Source of the DNA: a bacterium
GTDB taxonomy: Bacteria > Planctomycetota > Planctomycetia > Kolteriales > Kolteriaceae
Direction of reading: 5' to 3'
NCBI GenBank assembly: GCA_019753235.1
Contig: JAIELF010000011.1
Location: 1 to 64,000 of the forward strand
DNA: 64,000 nt
Positions 32,154 to 63,216 of the stretch are shown in pieces (within the stretch, counting starts at the first letter, position 1; every line of letters starts with the position of its first letter). The notes beneath the pieces were generated by a model that was given only the letters and a program-made list of their open reading frames with translations, did not search any database and was not told where the DNA came from. A program made the translations under genes and the position numbers.

Positions 32154-34793
32154 CTAAACCGTCTTTTGAGGGGTCATCGGCGAACTCACCGCCGACATGC
32201 CGGTCGATGAACGCCGCATCGAATGCACGCCCACAACGAGGGCAACATACGCGAGGTTCGCCAAAACGACGGCGAAAACGTACGGCTGTCCTCCGTCGCC
32301 GAACGCGTATGCATGCAGCCCCTCGCCGAGCACAAAGTTGACGCCGTACCAGCTCATCACGACACCAGAAAATGCAAGCACGCTCATCACGATCAGGCCA
32401 AAGGTCTTCAGCAGTCCCGCGAATCTAGCGTGTAAGACGGCGATATAACCGATGAACGCGATCAGCGCCCAGACTTCCTTCGGGTCCCATCCCCAAAATC
32501 GACCCCACGAGTACGCCGCCCACCATCCACCGAGCAACGTTCCCGCGCCGAGGAGGAGAACACCGACTTGAATCGACCGATAGATGTACTGAGCGATCGG
32601 CTTCATGGTGGTCGAGTTCGGCTTGCCCACCAGGTAGTAGGTTAGCCCCACGTTGCCGAGCATCCAAGCCAGCATGAAGGCGCCGTAGCTTGCGACAATC
32701 GTGAGGACGTGAATGACAAGCCAAAAGTTATCTCGAAGGACGGGAACAAGCGGGGATATCGAGTTACCAAACTCGGGGGGCATGACGTACGCCAGCAGTG
32801 TCGCGGGCGTGAGCGCCATCGCTCCGGTGGCAACGATGATTCGGTGCCCGTAGACGAGCCCGAGGACAATCGAAAGGGTCGCCATGATGAACGATGCCCA
32901 GATGATGGTTTCGTACATGTTGGTGACGGGGGGCCTGCCCGAGATCATGATTCGCAGAGTCGTCCCGTAGATCATAAATCCGACGGCGACCAATAACGTC
33001 ATGAAGCCTAGCCTATAAAGCCAAGGCCCCTCGATTCCGAGACTCAGAATCAGCATCACGAGTGCAAGTCCGCTGAAAACGACCGTCCAGAGGAAGGGTT
33101 GAAACTTGTTGTAATGAAGTTCTGTCTGGACAAGGTTGGCCGAGGGATAGAGGTAGGAGTCTTTCGACGCGGCAGACAAAAGGTCGGCCAATTGGGATGA
33201 AGCCGTGTTGAATGCCGCCGGGTCATCGGCGAGTAAGGCTGCTCGGGCTTGAGATAAGCTAGCGCGGATCGGTTCGATTTGTGATGACGAGTAACCTCGG
33301 CTCGGCCCGATCTCCGGGAGAGCGAGGATTTCGAGGATGTTCATCCAGCGAGCTTCATTCGCGATCGACTCGATCTTTAGTCGCTGCTGTTGCTCGAGAA
33401 GCTCTTGGGGATTGCCCCCTTTCTCTCCATCGGGAGTGACCCTCAATTCCTTGAGCAGGCGGTCGGCCACCTCTCGCAGGTCTGCCGCGAATGGATCGCT
33501 ATCGTTGATGCTCGCTTGCCAAGTCTCGACGACGGCAACGAATCCTTTTCCGTCCGCCGATGCAAGCTTGCTGGACAGATCCCCCAGCTTGCTTTCGATG
33601 GAGGTGATTCGATTTTTGATGTTCTGATCGGGAGCCAAAAAGATCGTCTGTCCGGTCCGAAGTTCGACAAAAGATCGATACGCCCTTAAGATCTCGACCG
33701 ACTTTTTGTCTGCCGTCGAGAGGTTTCTCTTTTCTGGCTTATCCTCTTCTAGCTTGGCGATGCGCAGAGCCCAATCGATAAACCATCGGTTCGCGTGGAT
33801 CGTCCGAATCGAAGCAGCGGAGGCCGTCTCTCCTTGAAGCTTCGGCGCGAGATCCTGAAATCGAGCATCAAGAATCGGCGCGGTATCCCAAGGATCGGGT
33901 TGATGAAAATCCCAGTAGATTCGATCGAAACCGATCGATCCGGGCCGGGACGACGTCAACAACTTCTTGACCTCTTCGGGCTTGTCCCATCCGCTCCAGG
34001 TGAGAACCAACGTGACCGCCAACTCCACCGGATCGTACTTTCGGTTCTCTCGGGCAAGCCCCTTCGCCGGGAACGCTTCCGCCGGCAGAGGCTTGATGGC
34101 GTCCCCTAAGATCGCTTCCAAGTGTTTGCGTCGAGCGACGGCCCGGTCGAGATCGGTAGCTTCCTTCGAGGCCGCCACCTCTTCCACAAGTTTCGCGGGT
34201 ACGATGGCCGACACCGCGGGGTTCTCGTTGAGGAAGTGAAGAATATCGACCTTGGTTCGACCGACCCCATCGATCTGAGCGAGAAGATCATCAAACTTCT
34301 TGAGGAGTTCTTTATCCTTGGTGTCGGTTGCCTCGGCACGGAACTCGGCAAGGGTCTTGTCGATGCCGATCTCTTTCACAAAAGCGTCGCGCCTCTTACG
34401 AATCTCCATGTCGATCGAGAGAAGCTCTTCTTCAAGCGGAGCGGTTTGCCAGTTGGTTTTCGGAAGGGTCTCTTTCCATTCGAAAGGGACAAGCTTGGCG
34501 AGCTCGGCCGCGGGCCCTTCCTTTTGCAGGAGCTTGTTCGCGAGTGCCGACCAATCTGGAATGTCGGCCACGCTGACGGTGGCGACGGTGCTGGGCTTCC
34601 ATTTGCTCTTGCCTGCAAATGAGTAGATTTGTTCCCACGCCAACGTATCCATCGGCTTGGCTCGACCATCATCCAGCACGACGATCTTTCGCCAGATATC
34701 CCAATCATATCCGACCGATTTCGGTTCCTCTCCCCGGGCCATGCCGGTCAGGACCAAGCCGATCCAAGCTACTTGCAACATTGTTCGATTCAT
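32154..34793 (-). CDS. ccsA: Cytochrome c biogenesis protein CcsA with long N-terminal extension
   Basis: The C-terminal third (about residues 590-860) is the CcsA haem-handling domain with eight membrane helices and the tryptophan-rich motif WGRFWGWDPKEVWAL, plus conserved His in HVLTIVASYGAFM and RFAGLLKTFG. A signal peptide and about 550 periplasmic residues precede it: RKIVVLDDGRAKPMDTLAWEQIYSFAGK, then a Lys/Glu/Leu-rich helical region. The LDDGRAKPMDT stretch is seen in planctomycete and Bacteroidetes CcsA proteins. The ATG at 34793 follows AAGGGA and starts a good signal peptide. It partners with ResB just upstream to attach haem c. Confidence 0.9.
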   Translation of the reverse strand: MNRTMLQVAWIGLVLTGMARGEEPKSVGYDWDIWRKIVVLDDGRAKPMDTLAWEQIYSFAGKSKWKPSTVATVSVADIPDWSALANKLLQKEGPAAELAKLVPFEWKETLPKTNWQTAPLEEELLSIDMEIRKRRDAFVKEIGIDKTLAEFRAEATDTKDKELLKKFDDLLAQIDGVGRTKVDILHFLNENPAVSAIVPAKLVEEVAASKEATDLDRAVARRKHLEAILGDAIKPLPAEAFPAKGLARENRKYDPVELAVTLVLTWSGWDKPEEVKKLLTSSRPGSIGFDRIYWDFHQPDPWDTAPILDARFQDLAPKLQGETASAASIRTIHANRWFIDWALRIAKLEEDKPEKRNLSTADKKSVEILRAYRSFVELRTGQTIFLAPDQNIKNRITSIESKLGDLSSKLASADGKGFVAVVETWQASINDSDPFAADLREVADRLLKELRVTPDGEKGGNPQELLEQQQRLKIESIANEARWMNILEILALPEIGPSRGYSSSQIEPIRASLSQARAALLADDPAAFNTASSQLADLLSAASKDSYLYPSANLVQTELHYNKFQPFLWTVVFSGLALVMLILSLGIEGPWLYRLGFMTLLVAVGFMIYGTTLRIMISGRPPVTNMYETIIWASFIMATLSIVLGLVYGHRIIVATGAMALTPATLLAYVMPPEFGNSISPLVPVLRDNFWLVIHVLTIVASYGAFMLAWMLGNVGLTYYLVGKPNSTTMKPIAQYIYRSIQVGVLLLGAGTLLGGWWAAYSWGRFWGWDPKEVWALIAFIGYIAVLHARFAGLLKTFGLIVMSVLAFSGVVMSWYGVNFVLGEGLHAYAFGDGGQPYVFAVVLANLAYVALVVGVHSMRRSSTGMSAVSSPMTPQKTV

Positions 34794-34837
34794 GATCCCA
34801 GTTCCCTTCTTCGACCCGAACGGCTTGTACAGGATGT

Positions 34838-36871
34838 TTATCCGCGTGACGCGGCGTCGGCAGCCCGCATGGGTTTCGTGCGGAAATATCCGCCCATGTA
34901 AAACATGAGGAAAATACCGACACAAAGAATGATCGCCCCGGCATACTTCATGATCAAACCAGGATCGTACGCGACGGTGTAGGTCGACACCGGGATACCC
35001 TGTTGTCGCGTGATGCCCGACTGATAAAGCGTGTACTCGTGCCCTGTCTCTCCCTTGAAGAACAAAGGATGGTTCATCTTAATCTCGGCTTTGCGGGTCT
35101 CTTCGAATGCAATGGCTTTCGACCCTCGCTTCGTCTGCAGGGGGTCATTCGGCTTGAGACTCTCGCTCGGGATATCCTTCTTTTTGAAGACGGTGACGAA
35201 GCTCTCGTACCGAGCAGCATTCATTGTGCCGGGCTGTTTCGGCTCGTTGAAGTCATCCAACCGAACCGCAAAGGGAAGCTCTTCTTCCTTTAGCTTGAAA
35301 CGAAGCGAAACGATCTTGCCATCGAGAACTCGGCGGGTCTCGGGGAGTTGCCGAACAAGTCGCGCGACGGTCTTTGTCCCGCTCGGAAGGGAGAACTCGA
35401 CTTCGATCGCAGGGAAGGTCTGCTCGCCCGGCGGGACCGGCTTGGGGGTGATTTCGACATCGGGTCGGCCACTGGCCAAGACCGCGCGGGGAATGAGTTC
35501 GAACATCCCGAACGATGGATATGCCTTGTTCAATTCCGCCACCACGCTGGCAACGCATGCTTGACTGCTGAAGGCTCGGTAGCCGAGTTGGTCCCCCGCG
35601 GTGACTAGGAATTGAACCTCGCTTGGATGGTCTGGTCGAAAGTAGGTCACAAAGGTCCCATCCGGAAGCCCTCCGCGCACGGCGAGTGGCCGAGCAAATT
35701 CGGGATTGTTGGCAAAAGCGATCGTTTCTCGCTGGAGATCACCCATCGAAAGCTTCAATCGAACGGCGGGATACTCGGGATCGGGGCCGGCGTTGCGCCA
35801 GGTTTTTTTCTCGGGATCAAGCTGAGCGTGCGGCATCTGTTCGATCAACTCGACGCGAAGGCCGATGGAAGGATCTTCGAACGGCTTTGCCTTAAGATCG
35901 TCCAGCGTCAGCAGGAAGTGTTTGCCAGCGTGAGAGAGCCCGATCTGTCCCAGCGTCCCGGCGATCTCGCCCTTGGGGGCTGCCGACACGAAATGATCAA
36001 GCTCGGCTTGAGAACCGGCTCGCCAAGTCCGAACGCGCACCGGCACACCGCCAACGCTAACTTGCTCGTCGCCGATGAAGCCGACCTCCGTCGGCCGAGC
36101 CGCCACCCACGCTGTCTGTTCAAAGTTGCCAATACTCGGAGCAGAGAGGGTGAAGGAGACTGCCGGGACGCCGACTTTGTCTGGCACATAAGTGTCATTC
36201 CAATCACAGTGGGCGATGAACTTCTTCACGCGAAGTTTTGCGCCCCGTTCGATCTCATCCAAAGCAAGAACTTCTTCGTGTCCCTTCCCCCAAGGGAAAA
36301 AACCGAGGATTTTCGATCCCCAAGTGAGGGGGCCAAACTGCACCGCGACCGCCTGATCCTTCTGCTTGCCGGTCCCCGGATCTTCCCAGCCGACACGAAC
36401 GATGTCTTGATCCGGGTGAATCATGGTGTCGGCAACTTCTCCCTGGCTGACGTTGAGAAGGGCATCGACGTGGGAGATGCTGGTGATCATCGAGCCGGCC
36501 AAAATCGTCAGCAGACCGACATGGGTAATGACAAACCCGGTCTGATACCTCTTCCAAGGAAATCGGATCAGCGCGGCCGACAACACGTTCAACGCCAAAA
36601 GCGCTAAGAGAATGTAAAACCGCGGGTTGCCGTAAACGAAGTACTTTGCCCCGGCGGCGTTGATCGTCGATTCGATCCGCGTCCCGATCGCACATTCGAT
36701 CATGAGCCAAACCATCAGCGTGATGGCGAGTTTCAGCGAAGAGGCGAACTCGAAGATTCGGTACAAGCCCCGTTCGATCGGATGGAGACTTTCAAGCTGT
36801 TCGCGCGGCGTCGGCGGACGAAGTACGGGGGCACGAGACTCTGCCGCGGACACCGAATCTGTACTGGCCAT
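34838..36871 (-). CDS. resB: Cytochrome c biogenesis protein ResB
   Basis: System II partner of CcsA, keeping apocytochrome thiols ready and helping haem delivery. The 677-residue protein has three N-terminal membrane helices (LAITLMVWLMIECAIGT, YILLALLALNVLSAALI, FVITHVGLLTILAGSMI), a large periplasmic part (including HPLFFKGETGHEYTLYQSGI) and a C-terminal helix YAGAIILCVGIFLMFYMGGYF ending in basic residues. The ATG at 36871 has GAGGA five bases upstream. It is 44 bases from ccsA and clearly in the same operon. Confidence 0.92.
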   Translation of the reverse strand: MASTDSVSAAESRAPVLRPPTPREQLESLHPIERGLYRIFEFASSLKLAITLMVWLMIECAIGTRIESTINAAGAKYFVYGNPRFYILLALLALNVLSAALIRFPWKRYQTGFVITHVGLLTILAGSMITSISHVDALLNVSQGEVADTMIHPDQDIVRVGWEDPGTGKQKDQAVAVQFGPLTWGSKILGFFPWGKGHEEVLALDEIERGAKLRVKKFIAHCDWNDTYVPDKVGVPAVSFTLSAPSIGNFEQTAWVAARPTEVGFIGDEQVSVGGVPVRVRTWRAGSQAELDHFVSAAPKGEIAGTLGQIGLSHAGKHFLLTLDDLKAKPFEDPSIGLRVELIEQMPHAQLDPEKKTWRNAGPDPEYPAVRLKLSMGDLQRETIAFANNPEFARPLAVRGGLPDGTFVTYFRPDHPSEVQFLVTAGDQLGYRAFSSQACVASVVAELNKAYPSFGMFELIPRAVLASGRPDVEITPKPVPPGEQTFPAIEVEFSLPSGTKTVARLVRQLPETRRVLDGKIVSLRFKLKEEELPFAVRLDDFNEPKQPGTMNAARYESFVTVFKKKDIPSESLKPNDPLQTKRGSKAIAFEETRKAEIKMNHPLFFKGETGHEYTLYQSGITRQQGIPVSTYTVAYDPGLIMKYAGAIILCVGIFLMFYMGGYFRTKPMRAADAASRG

Positions 36872-37282
36872 GCAATCCTCGCAGGGAGACATTGTTGTCA
36901 TCCCATTTTGCGGCTCAAATTGATTCTCTTGCCCTCGGTCCGCCGGCGGCAGTCGAGGGCTCTCCCCATCTCGTCGTACTCATTCTAGCGGTGGCGGGTG
37001 TCGCTCAAGTAGTCCCAATGGGTCCGGAAAGGTTCATCAGCGGCATTTTGTCCCGCCGTTGACTCGTCGAATTGGGGGGACAACCCCTATTTCTTGTTGG
37101 GTTTCCACTTTGCCAAGGAAGCCATCTCGCCGAGAGGGTAAAACTTCAAACCGTGACCTATCTTTTTCTCACCGGGTTACCTCATTCGCTTTGAAACTCT
37201 TTCCGTGGTGACCCACCTTGGATCGAACCGTCCGGTTATCGTCGGCGTAACAGAGATAACCGATCAGAGGATGGAATGCGTC
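36872..37282. other. Intergenic region between resB and the BLUF gene
   Basis: 411 bases between divergent genes. It must hold promoters for the resB-ccsA operon and the BLUF gene. I see only a weak GGGG/CCCC hairpin near 37075 and no gene or clear promoter boxes. Confidence 0.4.
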
Positions 37283-41185: not shown

Positions 41186-41307
41186 CCGCTTTGTCATCTC
41201 GCGTGTGACCTAAGCTTACTCCGAGCTTCGCTGGATCCGTTGCCGACACTGTGTACAAGGTGCCAGCGGTCGGCTTTGCGCACCTCTCAGGAAAAGGTCC
41301 GTCTCTG

Positions 41308-42267
41308 ATGGAAACCCTTGAACTTATTCAGCACAACTTATTGTCGCCGATCGTCCTGGCATTTGTGTTGGGGATGATCGCGACATTGCTTCACAGCGAT
41401 CTTCGGATGCCCGACGACATTTACACGGCACTCTCGATATATCTCCTTTTTGCGATCGGTTTGAAAGGTGGCGCTGAACTCTCCGAGACGAGCGTCATGC
41501 AAGTGATTTGGCCAGCCCTGGCAACCGTGAGCATGGGAGTCTTTATCCCGGTTTGGTGTTACTTTGCTCTTCGCAAGATTGGTCGATTGAGCGCGATCGA
41601 CGCCGCGGCGATTGCGGCACACTATGGCTCGGTGTCGGCGGTGACATTCATTGCGACACTGAACTTTCTCGAACGTCAGAGCATCAGCTACGAAGGTTAC
41701 ATGCCTGCCCTGATGGCAATGCTCGAAGTCCCCGCGATCGTCGTCGCTCTGGGCTTGGCCAATGTCGCGACCGGTCGCGTTGCCTCCTGGAAGGGGGCCA
41801 TGCACGAGATTCTGACCGGCAAAAGCGTTCTGCTGTTGGTGGGCGGCGTGACGGTCGGCATGATTGCAGGGCATCACGGTTACGAACAGGTGGCCCCGTT
41901 CTTTCAGAAGCCGTTCAAGGGAATCCTCTGTTTGTTCCTGCTCGAAATGGGCATGGTGGCGGCTCGTCGGCTGAGCGATCTTAAGACCGCCGGCGTCTTT
42001 CTGATTGCCTTTGCCCTGATTGCTCCGGTGATCAACGGAATGATCGGCGTCGTTGCCGGCCATTACGCGGGACTGTCCGTCGGTGGAACGACCGTTTTCG
42101 GCGTCCTGTGTGCCAGCGCGAGCTACATCGCGGCGACGGCTGCCGTGAGAGTCTCACTCCCCGAAGCCAACCCGAGTTACTACCTGACCACTGCATTGGC
42201 GGTGACGTTCCCGTTCAATCTCACCATCGGGATTCCGCTGTTCCTGGCGACGGCGCAATCCCTTTAA
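41308..42267 (+). CDS. sbtA: SbtA-type sodium-dependent bicarbonate permease, first copy
   Basis: The 319-residue protein has about ten membrane helices, starting with LLSPIVLAFVLGMIATLLHSDLRMPDDIYTALS, a characteristic SbtA N terminus. GAELSE, then AAIAAHYGSVSAVTFIA, and near the end CASASYIAATAAVRVSLPEANPSYYL with FPFNLTIGIPL are also present. It lacks the long cytoplasmic loop of cyanobacterial SbtA. The ATG at 41308 follows AAAAGG. A second copy starts 39 bases after its stop; no PII-like SbtB is adjacent. Confidence 0.88.
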   Translation: METLELIQHNLLSPIVLAFVLGMIATLLHSDLRMPDDIYTALSIYLLFAIGLKGGAELSETSVMQVIWPALATVSMGVFIPVWCYFALRKIGRLSAIDAAAIAAHYGSVSAVTFIATLNFLERQSISYEGYMPALMAMLEVPAIVVALGLANVATGRVASWKGAMHEILTGKSVLLLVGGVTVGMIAGHHGYEQVAPFFQKPFKGILCLFLLEMGMVAARRLSDLKTAGVFLIAFALIAPVINGMIGVVAGHYAGLSVGGTTVFGVLCASASYIAATAAVRVSLPEANPSYYLTTALAVTFPFNLTIGIPLFLATAQSL

Positions 42268-42306
42268 CCCGACAGCCTCGATCTCTTGAATTTGGAAGCA
42301 GGCACC

Positions 42307-43272
42307 ATGCAAGACACTCTTCATCTTATTCGTGACAATATGGTGTCACCGATCGTCCTGGCCTTCGTGCTGGGAATCGTGGCAACGTTGATTAAAAGCG
42401 ATTTGAAGATCCCCGAGAGCATCTTCACGGCCCTGTCGATCTATTTCCTGTTTGGACTGGGGCTACAAGGGGGAGCACAATTGGTTTCGCTTCCCTTCGC
42501 GGATTTGGCGGTCCCGATCTTCGTGGCGGTGCTCGTGGGGGCGGCCATTCCAGTGGTTTGTTCCATGACGCTGACGAAGAAAGGAGAGTACAGCGCGACG
42601 TATGCCGCCGCCATCGCGGCTCATTACGGCTTCGTCTCGACCGTGACGCTTTATGCCGCCATGAGTTGGCTTTCGACCGAACAGATTCCTTTCGAAGGGT
42701 ATCTCCCCGCACTTGCGGCGGCGATGGAGCTTGCTTCCTTAATCGCCGTCGTCTTTACCGTTCGAACGAGGGCCTCCATGGGGCAATTCTGGGGACAGAT
42801 CGCGCGCGATATTCTCTTCGGAAAGACGATCCTTCTGGTCGTCGGTGGAACCATCATCGGGATCTGGTCCGGCAAAGATGGCTACAACATGGTCGCCCCC
42901 TGCTTCCTTGAACCGTTTCAAGGAATCGCATGCCTGTTCATGATGGAACTCGGGATCGTGGCAGCAAAGCGACTCGGGGATTTGCGGGATTTCGGCGTCC
43001 TACGGACCATCGCGACGGGAATCTTTGTCCCGATGGCGTGCGGTGTGATCGGGGTGATTCTGGGAGACTTCGCGAATCTTTCGCTGGGCGGGAGAATGGC
43101 GCTCGGTGTGATCTGTGCCAGTTCGTCCTATTTGGCGGCAGCCATCGCCGTCCGGGTCTCGATGCCCAAACTCAATCCCGATTATTATTTCACGACCGCG
43201 CTGGCCGTCTCGTTGCCGTTCAACCTGGTGGCGGGTTTTCCCATTTATCTCTACTTGGCACAGGTGATCTGA
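42307..43272 (+). CDS. sbtA: SbtA-type sodium-dependent bicarbonate permease, second copy
   Basis: The 321-residue protein is similar in plan to its neighbour: MVSPIVLAFVLGIVATLIKSDLKIPESIFTALS at the start, AAIAAHYGFVSTVTLYA, and CASSSYLAAAIAVRVSMPKLNPDYYF near the end. The copies are related but clearly diverged. The ATG at 42307 is preceded by GGAAGCAGG. The gene's 3' end overlaps the DTW/Tsr3-like gene on the minus strand by 53 bases. Together the pair could form a heteromeric or dual-affinity bicarbonate uptake system. Confidence 0.87.
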   Translation: MQDTLHLIRDNMVSPIVLAFVLGIVATLIKSDLKIPESIFTALSIYFLFGLGLQGGAQLVSLPFADLAVPIFVAVLVGAAIPVVCSMTLTKKGEYSATYAAAIAAHYGFVSTVTLYAAMSWLSTEQIPFEGYLPALAAAMELASLIAVVFTVRTRASMGQFWGQIARDILFGKTILLVVGGTIIGIWSGKDGYNMVAPCFLEPFQGIACLFMMELGIVAAKRLGDLRDFGVLRTIATGIFVPMACGVIGVILGDFANLSLGGRMALGVICASSSYLAAAIAVRVSMPKLNPDYYFTTALAVSLPFNLVAGFPIYLYLAQVI

Positions 43273-43759: not shown

Positions 43760-45598
43760 TCAGGCCTGGTCGCCGGCCGTGCCTCGCTTTTGTTCTCGGC
43801 TATAGATGAACTCACGCAGGGCGTTATCTTTCATACCGAGCAGCTTGGCCGCCTTGGCGGGGTTGCCGGTCTCGAAGACGACAAAGTATCGTAACAACTC
43901 GTCGAAGAGTTTGATGTCGCCCCCCTGTCCCGTGGCCGACTGATCCAGAACCAAAATGACTTCCTTCCAAACGCGAGGTAACTCTTTCTGAAAGAGTCCC
44001 TCTGCTTTTCGCCAAGCTTCCTCGGCCGGCAGTCCGATCTCATCGACCAATGCGGCGGCGGCCAGTCGCGCAATCCGCCCCTTCCATCCCGAATCATCAT
44101 CGAGACTCTTCCAACTGTCTGCCGATGCGACAGGCGCATCTTGAGGTGGAGAGACAGGACCAGAGCGAGAGGAGCCCCCGGTTGGGGGAGGCATCGAAAG
44201 ACGAATCTCCTGAGCGTACTCTTCCATCTCAGGCAGGTCGATGAAATCGGTGACTCGGGCGAAATGGCCGACGAGCCCCTTCACGAAATCACGAAGCTTG
44301 CGACTGTTCCCGCCAGGAAAACCCCGATCAACCAGCCAGGCGATGGCTTCTTCGGAGAGGTCCATCTCTTGGCCGACGGCTTTGGCGAAGTACTGGCTGT
44401 ACGTGCGAGCTTGCAGTTCGATGTCGTCGGGCCGGGCGGCCAGAGGAGGAATCCTGATGACCAGTTGCTCGGCTCGGTTGATGAAACTCTCGGAGAGTTT
44501 CTGCTTCGTCTTGATCTCCTCCCAGCGGGGCGTCTCCACCGTCGCCACGATGGCGCACGCAGCGCTGCGGCGGGTCTCGTCTTGCCCCAAATGAGAATAC
44601 TCGCCGTCGTCGAGAAACGAGTGCAAGATCACACTGCCGCCATCGGTCAGTTTGTGCAGATCATCAAGAAGCAGAATGCCGCGCCCTGCCGTCTCGACCA
44701 ATCCCGCGCGGTCCGCAGTCGCTCCAGAGAACGAACCACGGACATGCCCAAAGAGAACGCTTCGCAGAAACTGTTCGTCGGTCAACTGATTGCAGGTTGC
44801 CGAGACAAAAGGCTGCTGGCGACGATTGCTCATGGCATGGATCAGGCCCGCCAACTCGGTCTTGCCCGTTCCTGTTTCACCGTCAATCAGTAGCATCGGT
44901 CGGGGACGGCGGCGTCCATCGGGAGATGGTTCATCCAGTCCGAGGTAAAGCTGGGTCAAATCGTATGCTCGGCGAAGCATGCTGCCGAACTCGTCGGACT
45001 GATAGACCAAGCCGCGTCGGCTCAACTCGCGAGCCAACTGAGAAATGTCGGGCGAGTTCAAGTATCGCGCGATGCCGGCAATGATCTTGGCGAGGAGCTC
45101 CTCTCCTCCCAAGTTGGTCGGCGAGCCTTTGCGAACGAATCGCTCCGGAGGAAAGTCGTCGGGGCGATGATAGGCCGAGTAGAGAACCCCCGTCGTCTCG
45201 GGATGTCGACGAATGACATCATCGACGAAAAAACGACCCGCGCGCGAGCCGATCGAATCTTCCGAGAATCGCATATCCGACACAACGACGGCAAAGAACT
45301 GTTCTCGAAGTAGTCGCAGCGCGTGGCGAAACGAACCTCCCTTTTCGCAGCAAAGATGAACGTGAATGTGGGCAGGAGAATGGTACTTGTATTTTGCCAG
45401 GCGAGAACTCTCATAGCCGATGGCCGAGACCTTAACGTTCAGCGGTCGATCGGCTGGAAACGGCGACCCCGCCTTCAAATTGGCCGACTGAAAGTCTCGG
45501 CTCTTCGCCAAGCCTTCAGAAAGGTCTCGGAGAAATCCAGGGACGGGGGACTCGAGCACATCCTCTTCGTCGTCGACGATCAAGACATGCAGAATCAC
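43760..45598 (-). CDS. AAA+ response regulator with an expanded receiver domain
   Basis: The 612-residue protein begins MILHVLIVDDEEDV, a receiver start, but the phospho-Asp is D108 (VVVSDMRF), not near 54, because some 50 residues are inserted. S141 and K157 fit the later receiver marks. The AAA+ domain has GETGTGKTELAG (Walker A), FGHVRGSFSGATADRAG (GSFSGA where GAFTGA contacts sigma-54), and GILLLDDLH (Walker B). The C terminus has a helical stretch ending in GNPAKAAKLLGMKDNALREFIY, a Fis-like helix-turn-helix. It probably activates sigma-54 promoters; the altered loop makes this less certain. No cognate kinase is next to it. Confidence 0.85.
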   Translation of the reverse strand: MILHVLIVDDEEDVLESPVPGFLRDLSEGLAKSRDFQSANLKAGSPFPADRPLNVKVSAIGYESSRLAKYKYHSPAHIHVHLCCEKGGSFRHALRLLREQFFAVVVSDMRFSEDSIGSRAGRFFVDDVIRRHPETTGVLYSAYHRPDDFPPERFVRKGSPTNLGGEELLAKIIAGIARYLNSPDISQLARELSRRGLVYQSDEFGSMLRRAYDLTQLYLGLDEPSPDGRRRPRPMLLIDGETGTGKTELAGLIHAMSNRRQQPFVSATCNQLTDEQFLRSVLFGHVRGSFSGATADRAGLVETAGRGILLLDDLHKLTDGGSVILHSFLDDGEYSHLGQDETRRSAACAIVATVETPRWEEIKTKQKLSESFINRAEQLVIRIPPLAARPDDIELQARTYSQYFAKAVGQEMDLSEEAIAWLVDRGFPGGNSRKLRDFVKGLVGHFARVTDFIDLPEMEEYAQEIRLSMPPPTGGSSRSGPVSPPQDAPVASADSWKSLDDDSGWKGRIARLAAAALVDEIGLPAEEAWRKAEGLFQKELPRVWKEVILVLDQSATGQGGDIKLFDELLRYFVVFETGNPAKAAKLLGMKDNALREFIYSREQKRGTAGDQA

Positions 45599-56926: not shown

Positions 56927-57177
56927 GGGATACGTTCTTTTCTCTCGCATTGAGAGACAACTCTGCGCGCTCGCTGCTTGAACCTGCCGAAGTTTTTTGG
57001 CATGATGTCGCACCTTGGCGCCGGTGAATCTCGCATGGACGCGATCGACGCTCTGTTTGGTCCAGATGGACAATTGAGAGTGCTTCGCAACCTTCTCCCC
57101 AGGCACGCCGAGGGTCGGCCCCCGCTTCCGTTGCCACCTTGCTCGATGAAATTCGTCAACATCAGGGAACAAGATCC

Positions 57178-60100
57178 ATGACACGTAAGCGCCTTGTCGA
57201 GTCGACCCCAGTCCAAATCGTTCGCAAGGACCAAGCGAACTCTTCGCGTCGGGGTTTGCGGTCGCGCAGGCCGTTGGGCCTGGAGATGCTCGAGCAGCGA
57301 ACGGTTCTGGCCAACGACCTTTTCATTGTCCCGGGGGTAGCAGGCGAAACCTATCGTCTCCTATTCGATTGGGTGTCGCGCGAAGCGGCCTTCAAGAATG
57401 AGATTGGTGTTTATCAGATAGACGATGCCCTTGGTCGTGTGGACGGGCTTGATCCTGGGGCGGCCGGCTACAGCGAGGCAGTCGCTCGAAGATCGCTTAA
57501 CATTTTTAAGGATTGCGAAAAGCCGGGCGACAAGAGCGAAATCACCGTCAACGCGGGCCAAAGGCTCGGCTTGATTTTGATCCAGAACGGCAAGATGGGG
57601 GCTTGGCAGCAACAGAATCCCAGCAACCGCGTTGGGGCCGGCCCGGTGGCGTTCTTCTCGTTCGATGCCGCCAATCCGGACCGGTTCGATCACGTTCGCG
57701 CGTCGGCGCTTACCAACAACACGCAGACGTTTTCGTTCGAGGATCAGCTCAACGGCGGTGATCAAGACTACAACGATGCGGTGATCCGAGTCAGCCTGGG
57801 AAGGAAAGATCCGCTTCGCACGCCGGGAACAACATCGCAAACGGTACCGACAACTTTTCTACTGGAATCGCGAAACGACCAACCGCGCGGCGAGGTCGGT
57901 GTGATCGTCGCGGACGATGCCGGCGGTCGAATCGGATCGCTTCTTCCTGGACAAGATGGCTACGTCGGGGCCGCCCTCGCGAGGAGGCAGACACTTTTTA
58001 CGCCGACTCAAAACGGGCCAGCGACACAGTCGGTCAATCTGCCCGCAGCAAGTCACCTGCTCTATTACATCATCGATCAAGGGACCGCGGCAAACTTCCT
58101 TCAGCAGAACCCCGCCAATAGGTTGGGAGCGGGCCCGCTTGCTCTGTTCTCGTCCTTTGCCGCCAGTCCCGATGGAATCGACCACGTCCGATTCCTGTCC
58201 GACAACCGCATCGGCTTCGAGAACAGCACCGACTGCGAAGATAAGGACTTTAACGATGTCGTCGTGACGTTCACGTTCGGCACGCCGATTTCCAATGATG
58301 CACCGCCGACCGTTACCGCTCGCTTAATCAACGACTCGGCGGGCGCCTCGGGGAACAATGCCGACCGGATCACCAACGATCCTTCCACCGAATTGACGGT
58401 CATCGATACCAATGCCCTATCGAGCATTCTCGTGGGGATCGACAATCTCCCCGAAGCATCTTTCGTTAATGTCACCTCTCGCCGAGGAACCGACGGAAAG
58501 ATCTTGCTTGATCGGGCATTCATCAATTCGTTGCCGGGCGGAAGCTCGCTGATCAATCAATTGAGCGAGGGCCCGCACACGATTCGTGTCATTGCGACCG
58601 ATGCCACTAATTTGACGACTCGTTTCAACTTCGATTTCAACTTTGACAGTCTGACGGCCACGCCAACGGCGGCGCTCGACCCGGCATCGGACACGGGTAC
58701 GCCAGGAGACTCGGTGACGAACTTGGCCCAGGTCATCATTCGGGGGACGGCCGAGGCAAACGCACTGGTGAGTATTGTGGGTGGCAACATACAGGCGACC
58801 GCCAACAGTTCCGGAAATTACGTCCTCAATAACGTCCCATTGAATCCAGGGCTGAACGCGCTTGTGATTCGTTCCACAGACATCGCGGGCAACGTCGCCA
58901 ATGTCAACTTGAACGTGACACGAGATTCAGACTTACCCAGCCTGGCCGCCCAGCTCGCCAACGATACCACCGGTCCGGGTGGTACGAATAGCGACCGCAT
59001 CTCCCGTGATCCGACGATCAATGCGACCGCGACCGACAATCGGACGATCACGAGTCTTCGTGCGGCTCTTGACCCCACCACGAACACGACGTTGACCGAT
59101 GTGCTCGCCCAGCTTCAACCGAATGGTTCGCTTGTCTTCACGACGACGCTGCTGAATCAACTCGCGGGAGGAACTCTTTCGCAAGGAGCCCACACGCTTC
59201 GTCTTGTCGCAGGGGATGCAGCGGGCAATTCTCGCACCCTCGATTTCACCTTCACGTTTGACAGCGAGATTGCCAACCCAACGGTAAGCCTCGACCCGGC
59301 ATCAGATACCGGGACGCCAGACGATCGAATCACCACTCTTCCGCTGGTCGTCCTTCGAGGGACCGCATCGCCTGGGTCACTGGTGGAAGTGGTTGGCCAG
59401 TTGATTCAGGCGACAGCCAACGACTCGGGGAACTACATCCTTACCAATGTCGCGCTGACGGCCGGCTCCAATACACTCGACGTTCGTTCCACTGACCGAG
59501 CCGGTAACACTGCGTCCACGAGTCTGGTGGTGACGTTGGATAATGCCCTTCCCGCGATCTCCGCGCAACTCGCCAACGATACCGGAGACTCAACGGAGAC
59601 ACGTGCCGATCGAATCACCAGTGACCCGACGATCAACGCGATCGTGACGGATGTCCCTGCGGTTACCAGTCTGAGGATTGCTCTAGACCCGGTGGGCAAT
59701 GGCACGCTGATCGATGTATTCAACCTGCTTCAGCCTGACGGAACGATCGTTTTTACGCAGGCCCAGCTCAATCAACTTGCGGGGGGGACGCTTTCGCAGG
59801 GGTCTCACACGCTTCGCATCGTGGCGGGCGATCTGGCGGGGAACACTCGTTCAGTCGATTTCACTTTCACGTTCGATAGCCAGATCGTCAAGCCAACCGG
59901 CTCGCTGGATCCATCGTTCGATTCGGGCACGATCGGTGACGGCATCACGAACTTCTCCCCGGTCACCATTCGGGGAACCGCAGAGCCAGGGAGCCTAGTC
60001 TTCATCACCGGCCTGACGAATCCGGTGCTGACCGATGGTTTGGGTAATTATGTCGCCAATGGTGTGCCGCTTGCTAGTGGCCTTAATACTCTTGTGATTC

Positions 60101-63100
60101 GTTCGACCGACGGGGCCGGCAACACCGATTCGATCAATCTCGAGATCATCCGCGATTCGGTTCGCCCGTCGATCTTGGCCGCCCTGGCTAACGATACCTT
60201 CGGAGCCAACGGCACCAACGCCGATCGCATCACCAGCGACCCGACCATCAATGCTACCATCACCGACAATCGCGCCGTAACGGACCTGCGAGCCGCCATC
60301 GATCCGGATAACAACACAACGCTCACGAGTCTCCTGTCACAGCTTCAACCCGACGGCACCATTGTCTTCACGACGTCGCTCTTGAATCAATTGGCGGGCG
60401 GTACTCTGTTGCAGGGGCCTCATACGCTGACGATTTTCGCACGCGATGCCGCCAACAATTTCGATCGCGTCGACTTCACCTTCACCTTCGACTCCGTCAC
60501 CACGACACCGACGATCGGGATCGATCCGAACTTCGATACTGGCCAAAAGGGCGACCTGCAAACAGCGATCACGCCGATCATTCTCATCGGCTCGGCAGAA
60601 CCCTTGTCACTGGTCAGTTTGGTGGGAATGTCGCGCACCACGAGCGCCTCGGCCAATGGTGAATTCTCGTTTGACAACATCACCTTGACCGTGGGGAACA
60701 ATCCGTTCATCGTCCGCTCGACCGACCTCGCGGGGAACGTCGCCCAGCAAGCCGTCAACGTCGTCGGGCTGCCGGCCCTTGGGGATATCGAGCTTCCAAC
60801 GGTGTCGGCACAGCTCGTCAATGACACGGCCGGCCCGAGCGGAAGCAGCACCGACAAGATAACCAGCGACCCGCGGATTCTCGTACAAGCGGCCGACAAC
60901 ACGGGCATCGTCAGCCTGTTGGTCGGTCTCGACAATCAAACACTTAATCAGTACCAGCAAATCGCATCTCAACTCTCCAGCGGCTCGGTGACTCTGTCGG
61001 CCGAGTTCCTGAATCAATTGGCGGGAGGAACACTTTCGCAGGGCCCGCATGTGCTGCGATTGATTGCCGCAGACGGTGCCGACAACAGCCGATCGCTGAA
61101 CTTCAGCTTTACTTTCGATTCCGTCCCCCCATCTTTGGTGGCAGGCTTGGCCCAGGACACCGCGGGTCCTGGCGGCACCACCAGCGACAGTATCACCAGC
61201 AACCCAACGATCAACGCCAGCTTTACCGACGACGTTGGAATCAGCGCGGCGCTGGCATCGCTTGATGGCGGGTTGGCAATCGACGTCAAGAATCTGCTGC
61301 AACCGGATGGGACGATCGTCTTCACTCGCGCCCTGCTCGATCAACTCGCCGGTGGAACACTTTCGCAAGGATCGCACACGCTTCAATTGGTAGGAACAGA
61401 TCAAGCATCGAATAGCAATTCCGTTTCGCTAACGTTCACCTTCGATTCTGTGACGCTGACGCCCACGGCAGAATTGCCCGCAGCGTTCGACAGCGGAACG
61501 CAGGGCGATCTCATTACGAATCAATTGACAGTCTCGATCACTGGTAACGCCGAACCGGGTGCGACCGTCAGTATTGTTGGGACCGGCCTCTCGGCCGTTG
61601 CCAATGGCACCGGCAATTACACATTGACCAACATCGCGCTCATTGAAGGGAACAACCTGCTCACCGTTCGTTCCACCGATTCAGCAGGGAACTCGGCTCA
61701 GACAGATATCACCATCGTCCGCGACTCACAAGGTCCGTCGGCGGTGGTTGGTCTTTCGAATGACACGGCCGGTCCTGGCGGAACAAACATCGATGGATTG
61801 AGCAGCGACCCTACCATCACCGGTACGTTTACCGATAGCACGTCGATTTCGAGTATTCGTGTCGGCCTCGATACCATGGCCGTCGATCAGTATCTCGAAC
61901 TTATTGGACAGTTGACCTCAGGCGGTGCTCTCACCGTCACGCCAGCGATCCTTAATCAACTGGCCGGTGGAACGCTGGCCCAGGGACCCCATCTGACAAA
62001 ATTCATCGTTCGTGATGTCGCTGGGAATCAGACCAACCGAGATCTAGCTTTCGCGTTCGATTCCGTCCTGGCCAACCCAAATCTGTCGCTGGACCGAGCG
62101 TCAGATGGTGGCGTGGTCGGCGACAACGTCACGAACTCGGCGACCATCACGATCAACGGAACGGCCGACCCCAATACGCAAGTGAGACTGATTCAAACGG
62201 GTGAGACGAGGGATGTCGGCAATGACGGAATCTTTTCGTTTACCAATGTCCCCTTGAGCCTCGACAATGATGGGAAGAATCCCCTGATCGTTGAAGTCCG
62301 CGATCGTGCCGGCAATCTTTCGAGCCGGGGAATCGAGATCATTCGTCAAAATACCGCCCCCACCCTGGTGGCGCCGATTGCCAATATCAACCGAGGGCCG
62401 GGGTCAGGCTCCACGCCGACGCAGATTGCCGTCGACCTGGCGGACAACTTCTTTGACAACGACATCAACAATAGCCTCGTCCGCTTCAACACGAACGAGG
62501 GGAGTTTCGACATGGAACTCTTCGACGCCCAGGCAGGCCGAACCGTGGCGAACTTCCTCAACTATGTCGAGCGAGGCGCCTACACCAACTCGTTCTTCCA
62601 TCGCCGACCGAACCCGATCTTTGTGCTGCAAGGGGGCGGCTTCCGCCTCGATGGCACCGCGCCGTCGGCCAGTGTCGCCCCCGTGGCAGCTGACCCGCCG
62701 GTTCGAAATCAGTTTGGTCCGTCGAATCTTGCGGGGACCGTGGCGATGGCCAAGCTCGGCACCGATCCCAATAGCGCGACCAATCAGTTCTTTGTGAACC
62801 TGGTCGACAACGTATCGCTGGACACCAATAACGGTGGCTTCTCTGTCTTCGGAAGGATCGTTCCAGAGACGCAGCCCACGATCAACAACCTTGTGGCCAT
62901 CCCGATTTCGAACCGAGGAACCCCGTTCAACGAGATTCCGCTCCGTAATTTCCCGTCCAACGGAACAGGGAGTCAGTTGACGCCCGCCAATCTGGCATTC
63001 GTCAACTCCGTCGACGTTGTTCGGCAAGTTGAGAAGCTGACCTACACCGCGAGTGTGGAGTCGACCACCAACGCGAATCTATTCACGCTGACAACGAACA

Positions 63101-63216
63101 ATCGACTGATTATCGCTCTCAACCCAGGGCAAACTGGGACCGCCACGATTCGCGTGACGGCGACCGACAGAGCGGGAGCTTCGGTCTCCAATACGTTTAC
63201 GGTGACGATCGCTTAA
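57178..63216 (+). CDS. Giant secreted protein: DUF4114 x2, Ig-like repeats, cyclophilin domain
   Basis: The 2,012-residue protein starts with the planctomycete export motif RRPLGLEMLEQRTVLAND. Two DUF4114 domains follow (about 62-210 and 226-368, each ending in a GDQDYNDAVI/DKDFNDVVV type motif). Seven repeat units then run to about residue 1725, each beginning near LANDTxGPGGT, with FTFDS at the end of the first half and GTAEPG and RSTDxAGN in the second. Residues about 1767-1915 are a cyclophilin-type prolyl isomerase (FFHRRPNPIFVLQGGGF, ATNQFFVNL, FGRIVPE), then a final cadherin-like domain. It is probably a cell-surface or adhesive protein. The ATG at 57178 follows AGGGA. Confidence 0.88.
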   Translation: MTRKRLVESTPVQIVRKDQANSSRRGLRSRRPLGLEMLEQRTVLANDLFIVPGVAGETYRLLFDWVSREAAFKNEIGVYQIDDALGRVDGLDPGAAGYSEAVARRSLNIFKDCEKPGDKSEITVNAGQRLGLILIQNGKMGAWQQQNPSNRVGAGPVAFFSFDAANPDRFDHVRASALTNNTQTFSFEDQLNGGDQDYNDAVIRVSLGRKDPLRTPGTTSQTVPTTFLLESRNDQPRGEVGVIVADDAGGRIGSLLPGQDGYVGAALARRQTLFTPTQNGPATQSVNLPAASHLLYYIIDQGTAANFLQQNPANRLGAGPLALFSSFAASPDGIDHVRFLSDNRIGFENSTDCEDKDFNDVVVTFTFGTPISNDAPPTVTARLINDSAGASGNNADRITNDPSTELTVIDTNALSSILVGIDNLPEASFVNVTSRRGTDGKILLDRAFINSLPGGSSLINQLSEGPHTIRVIATDATNLTTRFNFDFNFDSLTATPTAALDPASDTGTPGDSVTNLAQVIIRGTAEANALVSIVGGNIQATANSSGNYVLNNVPLNPGLNALVIRSTDIAGNVANVNLNVTRDSDLPSLAAQLANDTTGPGGTNSDRISRDPTINATATDNRTITSLRAALDPTTNTTLTDVLAQLQPNGSLVFTTTLLNQLAGGTLSQGAHTLRLVAGDAAGNSRTLDFTFTFDSEIANPTVSLDPASDTGTPDDRITTLPLVVLRGTASPGSLVEVVGQLIQATANDSGNYILTNVALTAGSNTLDVRSTDRAGNTASTSLVVTLDNALPAISAQLANDTGDSTETRADRITSDPTINAIVTDVPAVTSLRIALDPVGNGTLIDVFNLLQPDGTIVFTQAQLNQLAGGTLSQGSHTLRIVAGDLAGNTRSVDFTFTFDSQIVKPTGSLDPSFDSGTIGDGITNFSPVTIRGTAEPGSLVFITGLTNPVLTDGLGNYVANGVPLASGLNTLVIRSTDGAGNTDSINLEIIRDSVRPSILAALANDTFGANGTNADRITSDPTINATITDNRAVTDLRAAIDPDNNTTLTSLLSQLQPDGTIVFTTSLLNQLAGGTLLQGPHTLTIFARDAANNFDRVDFTFTFDSVTTTPTIGIDPNFDTGQKGDLQTAITPIILIGSAEPLSLVSLVGMSRTTSASANGEFSFDNITLTVGNNPFIVRSTDLAGNVAQQAVNVVGLPALGDIELPTVSAQLVNDTAGPSGSSTDKITSDPRILVQAADNTGIVSLLVGLDNQTLNQYQQIASQLSSGSVTLSAEFLNQLAGGTLSQGPHVLRLIAADGADNSRSLNFSFTFDSVPPSLVAGLAQDTAGPGGTTSDSITSNPTINASFTDDVGISAALASLDGGLAIDVKNLLQPDGTIVFTRALLDQLAGGTLSQGSHTLQLVGTDQASNSNSVSLTFTFDSVTLTPTAELPAAFDSGTQGDLITNQLTVSITGNAEPGATVSIVGTGLSAVANGTGNYTLTNIALIEGNNLLTVRSTDSAGNSAQTDITIVRDSQGPSAVVGLSNDTAGPGGTNIDGLSSDPTITGTFTDSTSISSIRVGLDTMAVDQYLELIGQLTSGGALTVTPAILNQLAGGTLAQGPHLTKFIVRDVAGNQTNRDLAFAFDSVLANPNLSLDRASDGGVVGDNVTNSATITINGTADPNTQVRLIQTGETRDVGNDGIFSFTNVPLSLDNDGKNPLIVEVRDRAGNLSSRGIEIIRQNTAPTLVAPIANINRGPGSGSTPTQIAVDLADNFFDNDINNSLVRFNTNEGSFDMELFDAQAGRTVANFLNYVERGAYTNSFFHRRPNPIFVLQGGGFRLDGTAPSASVAPVAADPPVRNQFGPSNLAGTVAMAKLGTDPNSATNQFFVNLVDNVSLDTNNGGFSVFGRIVPETQPTINNLVAIPISNRGTPFNEIPLRNFPSNGTGSQLTPANLAFVNSVDVVRQVEKLTYTASVESTTNANLFTLTTNNRLIIALNPGQTGTATIRVTATDRAGASVSNTFTVTIA
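58318..62080 (+). repeat. Array of about seven Ig-like repeat units in the giant gene
   Basis: Units begin near 58318, 58948, 59563, 60180, 60806, 61141 and 61747. Spacing is about 600-630 bases except the fifth unit, about 335 bases, which lacks the second (GTAEPG) half. The DNA is similar but not identical between units, so the array is not a recent expansion. Confidence 0.8.

Follow-up and report, generated by a model that had tools for sequence, protein, structure and literature searches.

An atypical relative of the NtrC-type regulators is encoded in a 64,000-nucleotide stretch of DNA from a planctomycete of the family Kolteriaceae (GenBank assembly GCA_019753235.1, contig JAIELF010000011.1, positions 1 to 64,000; hereafter the window). 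Judged by its sequence, the protein is near the NtrC-type regulators by descent and by domain order, with a receiver-like domain at its N-terminus, a central AAA+ domain, and a C-terminal helix-turn-helix (HTH) motif (Table 1). An original prediction for this gene had drawn attention to an insertion of roughly 50 residues in the receiver, to a His/Cys-rich patch, and to the spelling of the loop that faces sigma-54. A consistently altered ATPase site, which that prediction missed, is a larger oddity than the receiver insertion. The AAA+ assignment comes from Pfam, which matched PF00158 (Sigma54_activat) to residues 236–364 (score 103.9 bits, cut-off 20.2 bits, E 9.6e-30) and returned weaker AAA-type matches as well; when PF00158 was scanned against the regulator's own genome, the regulator scored 107 bits versus 220–247 bits for the seven top matches of that genome. 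A FIS-like HTH was recognized at the C-terminus by hhalign against 20 NtrC-type C-termini (94.3% probability, E 9.8e-8), and Pfam gave no match at E ≤ 1 in the last 143 residues. The full-length AlphaFold2 model, poor across the AAA+ domain, was used for N-terminal and C-terminal secondary structure only; it displays three helices in the C-terminal region and extra helices ahead of the HTH, at low overall confidence.

Full-length orthologues were found in both other genomes searched from the window's family (f1), giving three of three: one in Planctomycetes bacterium Pan216 (locus L010), 60% identical to the window protein, and one in a metagenome-assembled genome (locus L009), 69% identical. 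To cover the class, 397 genomes were searched with a profile built from the three f1 N-termini, scoring up to eight candidates per genome. The protein was retrieved from 14 genomes, of which 11 belong to a second family, f6, with E values of 1e-44 to 1e-63; nothing further appeared at E ≤ 1e-5. The 14 orthologues referred to below are these three f1 and 11 f6 proteins of the same class. When all candidates were scored, the protein was present in 11 of 45 genomes of f6. The N-terminal profile was also applied to a sample of the phylum (392 genomes), where it recovered the window and one weak partial match (G167, E 1.1e-4 over positions 93–149) that was taken as a plain receiver segment and left uncounted; the full-length protein at E ≤ 1e-40 was found in 1 of the 392 genomes. 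The regulator family is rare within the sampled genomes, with a single match per genome, and no description of it was found in the literature searched, which covers few subscription papers.

The ATPase site departs from the usual one in the same positions in every orthologue. The Walker B Glu is replaced by Asp (D313 in the window protein), the first Arg of the arginine-finger motif RxDxxxR (position 369) is Pro, Ser, or Ala, and the Asp of that motif (position 371) is Ala or Ser, each in 14 of 14 members; Glu, Arg, and Asp, respectively, occupy these positions in all 23 comparators. The residue following the Walker A Lys is Arg or Thr in all 14, versus Glu in 21 of 23 comparators, the switch-Asn position holds Ser or Thr throughout (comparators: Asn in 17 of 23), and two additional residues (VE) stand behind the sensor I Thr. 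Every member keeps the Lys of Walker A and the Asp of Walker B, as well as the sensor II Arg and the final Arg of RxDxxxR. We take these positions to match K42, E43, N64, E108, R162, D164, R168, and R227 of PspF, a correspondence drawn by motif. The 23 comparators were chosen by the pattern G.F[TS][GD]A, so that the set holds neither wider loop variants nor loop-less proteins; the window's genome supplied six and loci fetched via peptides of the window protein the other 17, and some are near copies of one another by their C-termini (L023/L025 and the minus-strand gene of L020/L021).

A wider census gave the same picture: the Walker B Glu and the Arg and Asp of the finger motif are canonical in all 30 readable bacterial enhancer-binding proteins (bEBPs) of genomes G000, G002, and G456, six of which are the same genes as six of the 23 comparators. 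This count was drawn from 42 loci and excludes two rows belonging to the regulator family itself (L071 and L101), nine rows in which no GAFTGA-like loop could be read, a few of them probably misframed (L072–L075, L088, L098, L102, L103, and L105), and L104, in which Walker B was unreadable; 12 of 42 matches that yielded no locus lie outside it. One of the excluded rows, L102 of G456, is a divergent Sigma54_activat protein that displays Walker B DD, keeps the Arg and Asp of the finger motif, and has no GAFTGA-like loop aligned. Because RxDxxxR and Walker B DE are absent from it, the regulator is not classed here as a canonical bEBP, and it may still work like one.

Biochemical work on PspF offers a guide to what such a site would do. 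R162 of PspF was identified as the genuine arginine finger, and RxDxxxR is described as ubiquitous among bEBPs (PMC3419264). Changes at R162, D164, or R168 drastically reduced ATPase activity and gave constitutive hexamers, R162A and R162K retained a reduced interaction with sigma-54, which was productive for R162K only, R168K retained full interaction, and the remaining variants, among them those altered at D164, gave no stable complex (PMC3419264). From the R162, D164, and R168 mutants, we infer by analogy a ring that would take up ATP, assemble with ease, and hydrolyze poorly, with its sigma-54 loop under constraint.

The main rival to this view is a fully active sigma-54 activator in which the finger has moved, for example to the Lys or Arg at position 363, accompanied by the family-specific W359, and in which the Walker B Asp is tolerated. 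Residue 363 is basic and residue 359 is Trp in 14 of 14 orthologues, as opposed to V, M, I, S, or A at 363 and Leu at 359 in all 23 comparators. Retention of the last Arg of RxDxxxR, the sensor II Arg, and the Walker A Lys would suit an active enzyme, as would the visibly constrained L1 loop, and E108D of PspF performed as wild type does on duplex DNA (PMC4132715), so that Walker B DD alone is no argument for inactivity. We nonetheless regard a moved finger as rather unlikely, given that R162 is the genuine finger of PspF within a motif found ubiquitously in bEBPs (PMC3419264), that the Asp of this motif has been lost as well, and that no structure places residue 363 at the nucleotide.

The original prediction had read the sigma-54 (L1) loop as GSFSGA instead of GAFTGA. 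The reading itself holds and is nothing special, with 8 of the 23 comparators likewise departing from GAFTGA, two as GSFSGA and three as GAFTDA. Within the regulator family, the two close f1 orthologues have GAFSGA and all 11 f6 members GAFTDA; the G, F, and A of GAFTGA, together with Ser or Thr at the fourth position, are retained in 14 of 14. Similar variation is reported from Desulfovibrio vulgaris, in which 12 of 37 enhancer-binding proteins depart from GAFTGA, including GAFSGA, GSFTGA, and GAFTDA (PMC4641369), and natural GAFTDA loops are exemplified by DVU2106 and VfmH (PMC4641369, PMC10714721). A Thr-to-Ser change in the PspF loop lowered closed-complex affinity and remodeling efficiency and left transcription measurable (PMC7229158). 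The string GSFSGA was not found in the literature searched. As a sign of new function it was rejected, since it resembles ordinary natural loop variants. Natural GAFTDA loops were also observed in L020, L021, and L091, which are bEBPs outside this regulator family.

A sigma-54 gene (PF04552) was detected in all 17 genomes searched, including all 14 that carry the regulator, and a sigma-54 promoter scan gave 64 matches versus 52 expected, a number reached by 4 of 100 shuffles, so that no conclusion is taken from it. The presence of sigma-54 bears on the second rival, according to which the family has abandoned sigma-54 and regulates sigma-70-type promoters by phosphorylation-switched DNA binding, like NtrC of Rhodobacter capsulatus and Caulobacter. 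Such a switch would suit the degenerate ATPase site, and certain bEBPs that lack GAFTGA reportedly work at sigma-70 promoters with no ATP hydrolysis (PMC10274813). It would also agree with the failure of PspF D164 variants to form a stable sigma-54 complex (PMC3419264) and with VfmH, a GAFTDA protein that did not pull down sigma-54 (PMC10714721). However, the Rhodobacter and Caulobacter NtrCs have deleted the GAFTGA loop (PMC10274813), whereas GAF[ST][GD]A or GSFSGA is kept here in all 14 members, every genome with the regulator encodes sigma-54, and a GAFTDA loop works in NorR, whose G266D variant is constitutively active (PMC2941729). The border is not a sharp one, as motif-less mutants of Caulobacter NtrC were still able to raise the expression of some sigma-54-dependent genes (PMC12421884). 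We consider loss of the sigma-54 connection unlikely.

Two proposals made in the original prediction for the N-terminal domain, the insertion of about 50 residues and the assignment of D108 as phospho-acceptor, are supported by comparative analysis. Both hold because five active residues are invariant and because the receiver score rises when about 54 residues are cut, with shuffled sequences scoring near zero. The acidic pair D9/D10 and D108 lie where they had been placed and, with S141 and K157, which complete the site, are each invariant in the alignment of 14 orthologues; D9, D10, and D108 are the sole invariant Asp residues of the domain. The D10–D108 spacing amounts to 98 residues, compared with 42, or 56 fewer, in the first of 14 aligned NtrC receivers (D7–D49). 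A MAFFT alignment with NtrC receivers had suggested a receiver Lys near residue 182; K157 was preferred, being invariant in 14 of 14 and following predicted strand 5.

The extent of the insertion was estimated by an excision scan in which the first 190 residues of the window protein were scored against a profile of 14 aligned NtrC receivers, with cuts that started at residues 12–60 and were lengthened six residues at a time from 0 to 66. The intact N-terminus scored 20.5 bits and the score peaked at 30.1 bits with a 54-residue cut; over the 14 orthologues, this cut brought the mean up to 18.8 bits from 9.7. Among 100 shuffled versions of the window N-terminus, the highest score was 0.4 bits intact and 1.6 bits after a 48-residue cut. 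With the cut fixed at 48 residues, the best start fell between residues 19 and 45 in 13 of the 14 members. Within the inserted stretch, G61 and S64 are conserved in all 14 orthologues and R66 in 13. Profile comparisons by hhalign matched receivers at 96.6% with the 3-row alignment and at 72.3% with the 14-row one, and each match was confined to the part between about helix 2 and strand 4. A profile search of the PDB gave eight rows at E ≤ 1, of which two were receivers, the better at E 0.023, and the other six were RuvB.

Structure prediction of this region, a check proposed with the original prediction, answered in part. Two AlphaFold2 runs on three-row alignments agree on the order of secondary-structure elements: strand 1 (3–9), helix 1, an extra helix (34–42), an extra strand (55 to 59/60), strand 2 (78–84), helix 2, strand 3 (to 106/107), helix 3, strand 4 (to 141/142), strand 5 (154–156), and helix 5. 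This order places D108 directly after strand 3 and the additional elements between helix 1 and strand 2; the low model scores and the want of a Foldseek match, detailed below, set the limit of this answer. Helix 4 is not clearly predicted, and S141 and K157 are 16 residues apart, compared with 22 from the Thr to the Lys of the NtrC receiver (L004 row); in the models, helix 4 looks shortened or absent. When the 1000 best Foldseek chains were realigned with VIA-align, 15 of the first 20 rows were named response regulators or receivers, headed by 3cu5 (Z 9.7 over 121 residues) and HupR (Z 9.2), on a scale where Z values of 7 to 8 are common without a true relative. The sequence evidence supports a receiver enlarged by about 50 residues, with D108 as the putative phospho-acceptor, and the weak models put the extra stretch between helix 1 and strand 2.

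The His/Cys-rich run, HSPAHIHVHLCCEKGG, occupies residues 73–88 as originally described, and its supposed location inside the extra stretch was not upheld: residues 78–84 form predicted strand 2, and in both models H79, H81, C83, and C84 belong to this core strand, leaving only H73–H77 as possible parts of the insert. Conservation of the His and Cys residues in homologues, a check set beforehand, failed across the 14 orthologues, in which H73 is shared by 3, H77 by 6, H79 by 12, H81 by 14, C83 by 3, C84 by 4, and H92 by 3. Only H81 is thus invariant, and the Cys pair C83/C84 is a feature of f1 (3 of 14). On this count, a metal- or redox-sensing patch is not supported as a general function of the regulator family. 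A narrower proposal would confine metal binding or redox sensing to the three f1 proteins, in which H73, H77, H81, C83, C84, and H92 are invariant, and an NtrC-family regulator, XibR, is reported to bind ferric iron (PMC5130282). The other two f1 proteins are so close to the window protein (69% and 60% identity) that three-way conservation is weak evidence, however, and alternate side chains of a run that is mainly a predicted core strand should face opposite sides. Together with the counts for H73, C83, C84, and H92, these points make metal or redox sensing very improbable even within f1.

Table 1. Positions of the regulator, its parts, and other features of the window
Feature	Coordinates	Strand	Remarks
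Regulator open reading frame	43760..45598	minus	612 aa, GTG start; receiver-like domain, AAA+ domain, C-terminal HTH
Receiver-like domain, residues 1–182	45053..45598	minus	Five invariant residues, receiver-profile scan, model and structure comparison
Approximate insertion, about residues 24–77, between helix 1 and strand 2	45368..45529	minus	Excision scan and two models; edges uncertain
His/Cys run HSPAHIHVHLCCEKGG, residues 73–88	45335..45382	minus	Mostly predicted core strand 2 (78–84)
D108, proposed phospho-acceptor	45275..45277	minus	14/14; directly follows predicted strand 3
K157, proposed receiver Lys after strand 5	45128..45130	minus	14/14; two models
AAA+ (Sigma54_activat) domain, residues 231–455	44234..44908	minus	PF00158
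L1 (GAFTGA-type) loop, GSFSGA, residues 288–293	44720..44737	minus	Alignment of 14 members
Walker B LLLDD, residues 309–313	44660..44674	minus	Asp replacing catalytic Glu; 14/14 versus 0/23 comparators
Degenerate arginine-finger motif (RxDxxxR), SESFINR, residues 369–375	44474..44494	minus	Lacks the first Arg and the Asp of the motif; retains its last Arg
FIS-like HTH, residues 562–605	43784..43915	minus	Profile–profile match; three helices in model
Tsr3/DTW-like (DUF367) gene, 169 aa	43220..43729	minus	30 bp past the regulator's stop
Propeller-like protein, 734 aa	45638–47842	minus	Signal peptide likely (by eye), sub-threshold Reg_prop match; ends about 40 bp before the regulator
Hybrid histidine kinase, 850 aa	37699..40251	minus	HisKA, HATPase_c, Response_reg, Hpt; 3.5 kb from the regulator
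Tandem genes matching Sbt_1 (Na+-dependent bicarbonate transporter family)	41251–42267 and 42286–43272	plus	404 and 279 bits
Two adjoining genes with Cytochrom_C_asm (cytochrome c assembly) and ResB-like matches	32154–36901	minus	
2025-aa open reading frame	57139–63216	plus	Bacterial Ig-like domains, DUF4114, cyclophilin-type peptidyl-prolyl isomerase domain

Neighboring genes were considered as a guide to function, and no regulon is named from them. A homologue of the Tsr3/DTW-like gene follows it in 3 of 3 f1 genomes, and the f6 loci gave no blastp match to this gene at 1e-8; the profile matches behind the Tsr3/DTW-like label all lie below curated cut-offs, and the homologue in G002 has none. 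The propeller-like gene adjoins the regulator only in the window and in G001 (locus L009; 56% identity) and has no match in G002; matches to it were found in 4 of the 17 genomes searched, one of them a genome without the regulator. In f6, a divergently oriented ComM-like gene, labeled from a Pfam run on two f6 genes, is the immediate upstream neighbor at 4 of 11 loci; its distance is 1.3 kb in G447 and about 5 kb in G406. A Pfam scan of 21 window proteins, the regulator included, identified one hybrid histidine kinase, which is separated from the regulator by the Tsr3/DTW-like gene and three plus-strand genes. Near-full-length relatives of the kinase occur in G001 (57% identity, on a different contig from the regulator) and in G002 (47%, 5.3 Mb from the regulator), and the f6 matches cover mainly the kinase core. 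The hybrid kinase is a possible candidate partner only; we do not claim a partnership.

The reading that we prefer, whose chances of being right we judge to be evenly balanced, is that of an NtrC-like regulator that is switched at D108, faces sigma-54, and hydrolyzes ATP poorly. A phosphorelay or a small phosphodonor would phosphorylate D108 of the enlarged receiver, with the Hpt-containing hybrid kinase 3.5 kb away as a candidate phosphodonor. Owing to its extra helix and strand and its shortened helix 4, the receiver would probably contact the AAA+ ring via a changed surface. The ring, with its Walker A Lys intact, would bind ATP and retain the loop that faces sigma-54; it would most likely assemble readily, with ATP hydrolysis slow or nil. 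Recruited to DNA by the FIS-like HTH, a phosphorylation-gated, ATP-bound ring would then hold or license closed complexes at sigma-54 promoters without the usual power stroke. In a stronger form, which we put forward tentatively as possible but doubtful, ATP hydrolysis has been given up and the phosphorylated, enlarged receiver switches an ATP-loaded ring that engages the sigma-54 polymerase with no power stroke, which would make the regulator a natural equivalent of the PspF ATPase-site mutants.

Several observations weigh against an NtrC-like switch of this kind. By analogy, its weakest point is contact with sigma-54, against which speaks the finding that the PspF D164 changes tested gave no stable sigma-54 complex (PMC3419264). 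At the ATPase site, PspF E108D was like wild type on duplex DNA despite reduced ATPase activity (PMC4132715), Walker B DD also occurs outside this regulator family in L102, the switch-Asn position is Ser in 2 of the 23 comparators as well, and the basic residue 363, present in all 14 orthologues, could be a relocated finger. Pfam Response_reg gave no match to the window protein at E ≤ 1 and matched only 1 of the 14 N-termini, at E 0.082. The intact f6 N-termini score lower against the receiver profile (3.8 to 10.1 bits), and in member G456 a 48-residue cut at position 113 ties with one at 47. The f1 scores are possibly inflated, because 11 of the 14 receivers in the profile came from loci fetched via window-protein peptides that included IVDDEEDV. 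Confidence in the receiver models is low (mean predicted local distance difference test scores of 60.6 and 45.6); a Foldseek search yielded nothing at E ≤ 0.001, its first rows being mostly type II dehydroquinases, and arginine decarboxylases stand among the first ten rows of the realignment. Finally, no kinase gene is adjacent to the regulator, and in both G001 and G002 the best match to the hybrid kinase lies away from the regulator. With no adjacent kinase gene and a hybrid kinase that is unlinked in G002, the case for phosphorylation rests on the five receiver residues.

Among known systems, the closest are the NtrC-type regulators (REC–sigma-54 AAA+–FIS HTH), with which the protein shares domain order, receiver residues, PF00158, the L1 loop, Walker A, the sensor II Arg, the last Arg of RxDxxxR, and a FIS-like HTH. 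Its own features by comparison are the approximately 50 extra receiver residues, an apparently shortened helix 4, Walker B DD, loss of the first Arg and the Asp of RxDxxxR, VE after the sensor I Thr, and the extra helices before the HTH suggested by a low-confidence model. The PspF mutants R162A, D164A, and E108D are altered at the same positions (PMC3419264, PMC4132715), the difference being that in the regulator, as read from sequence, the changes occur naturally and together, and all 14 members found have them, with Ser, Pro, or Ala in place of R162 and Ser or Ala in place of D164. Constitutive NorR G266D carries the GAFTDA loop that is seen in 11 of the 14 orthologues, all of them from f6 (PMC2941729); NorR has a GAF domain and no receiver, and the loop of the window protein itself is GSFSGA. 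The noncanonical NtrCs of Rhodobacter capsulatus and Caulobacter are likewise receiver-controlled with an atypical AAA+ domain (PMC10274813), yet they delete the sigma-54 loop, whereas the present family keeps the loop and alters the ATPase site instead.

A smaller point of interest is a receiver that appears to have gained length between helix 1 and strand 2 and has kept its active residues. Surveys that are restricted to GAFTGA proteins (as in PMC12316311), or that require a Response_reg match, could miss proteins of this kind. If the reading of the ATPase site is true, this would be a natural family that lacks residues held to be required for sigma-54 activation and has kept the sigma-54 loop, and it would allow one to ask whether ATP binding without hydrolysis, or a moved finger, controls sigma-54 promoters.

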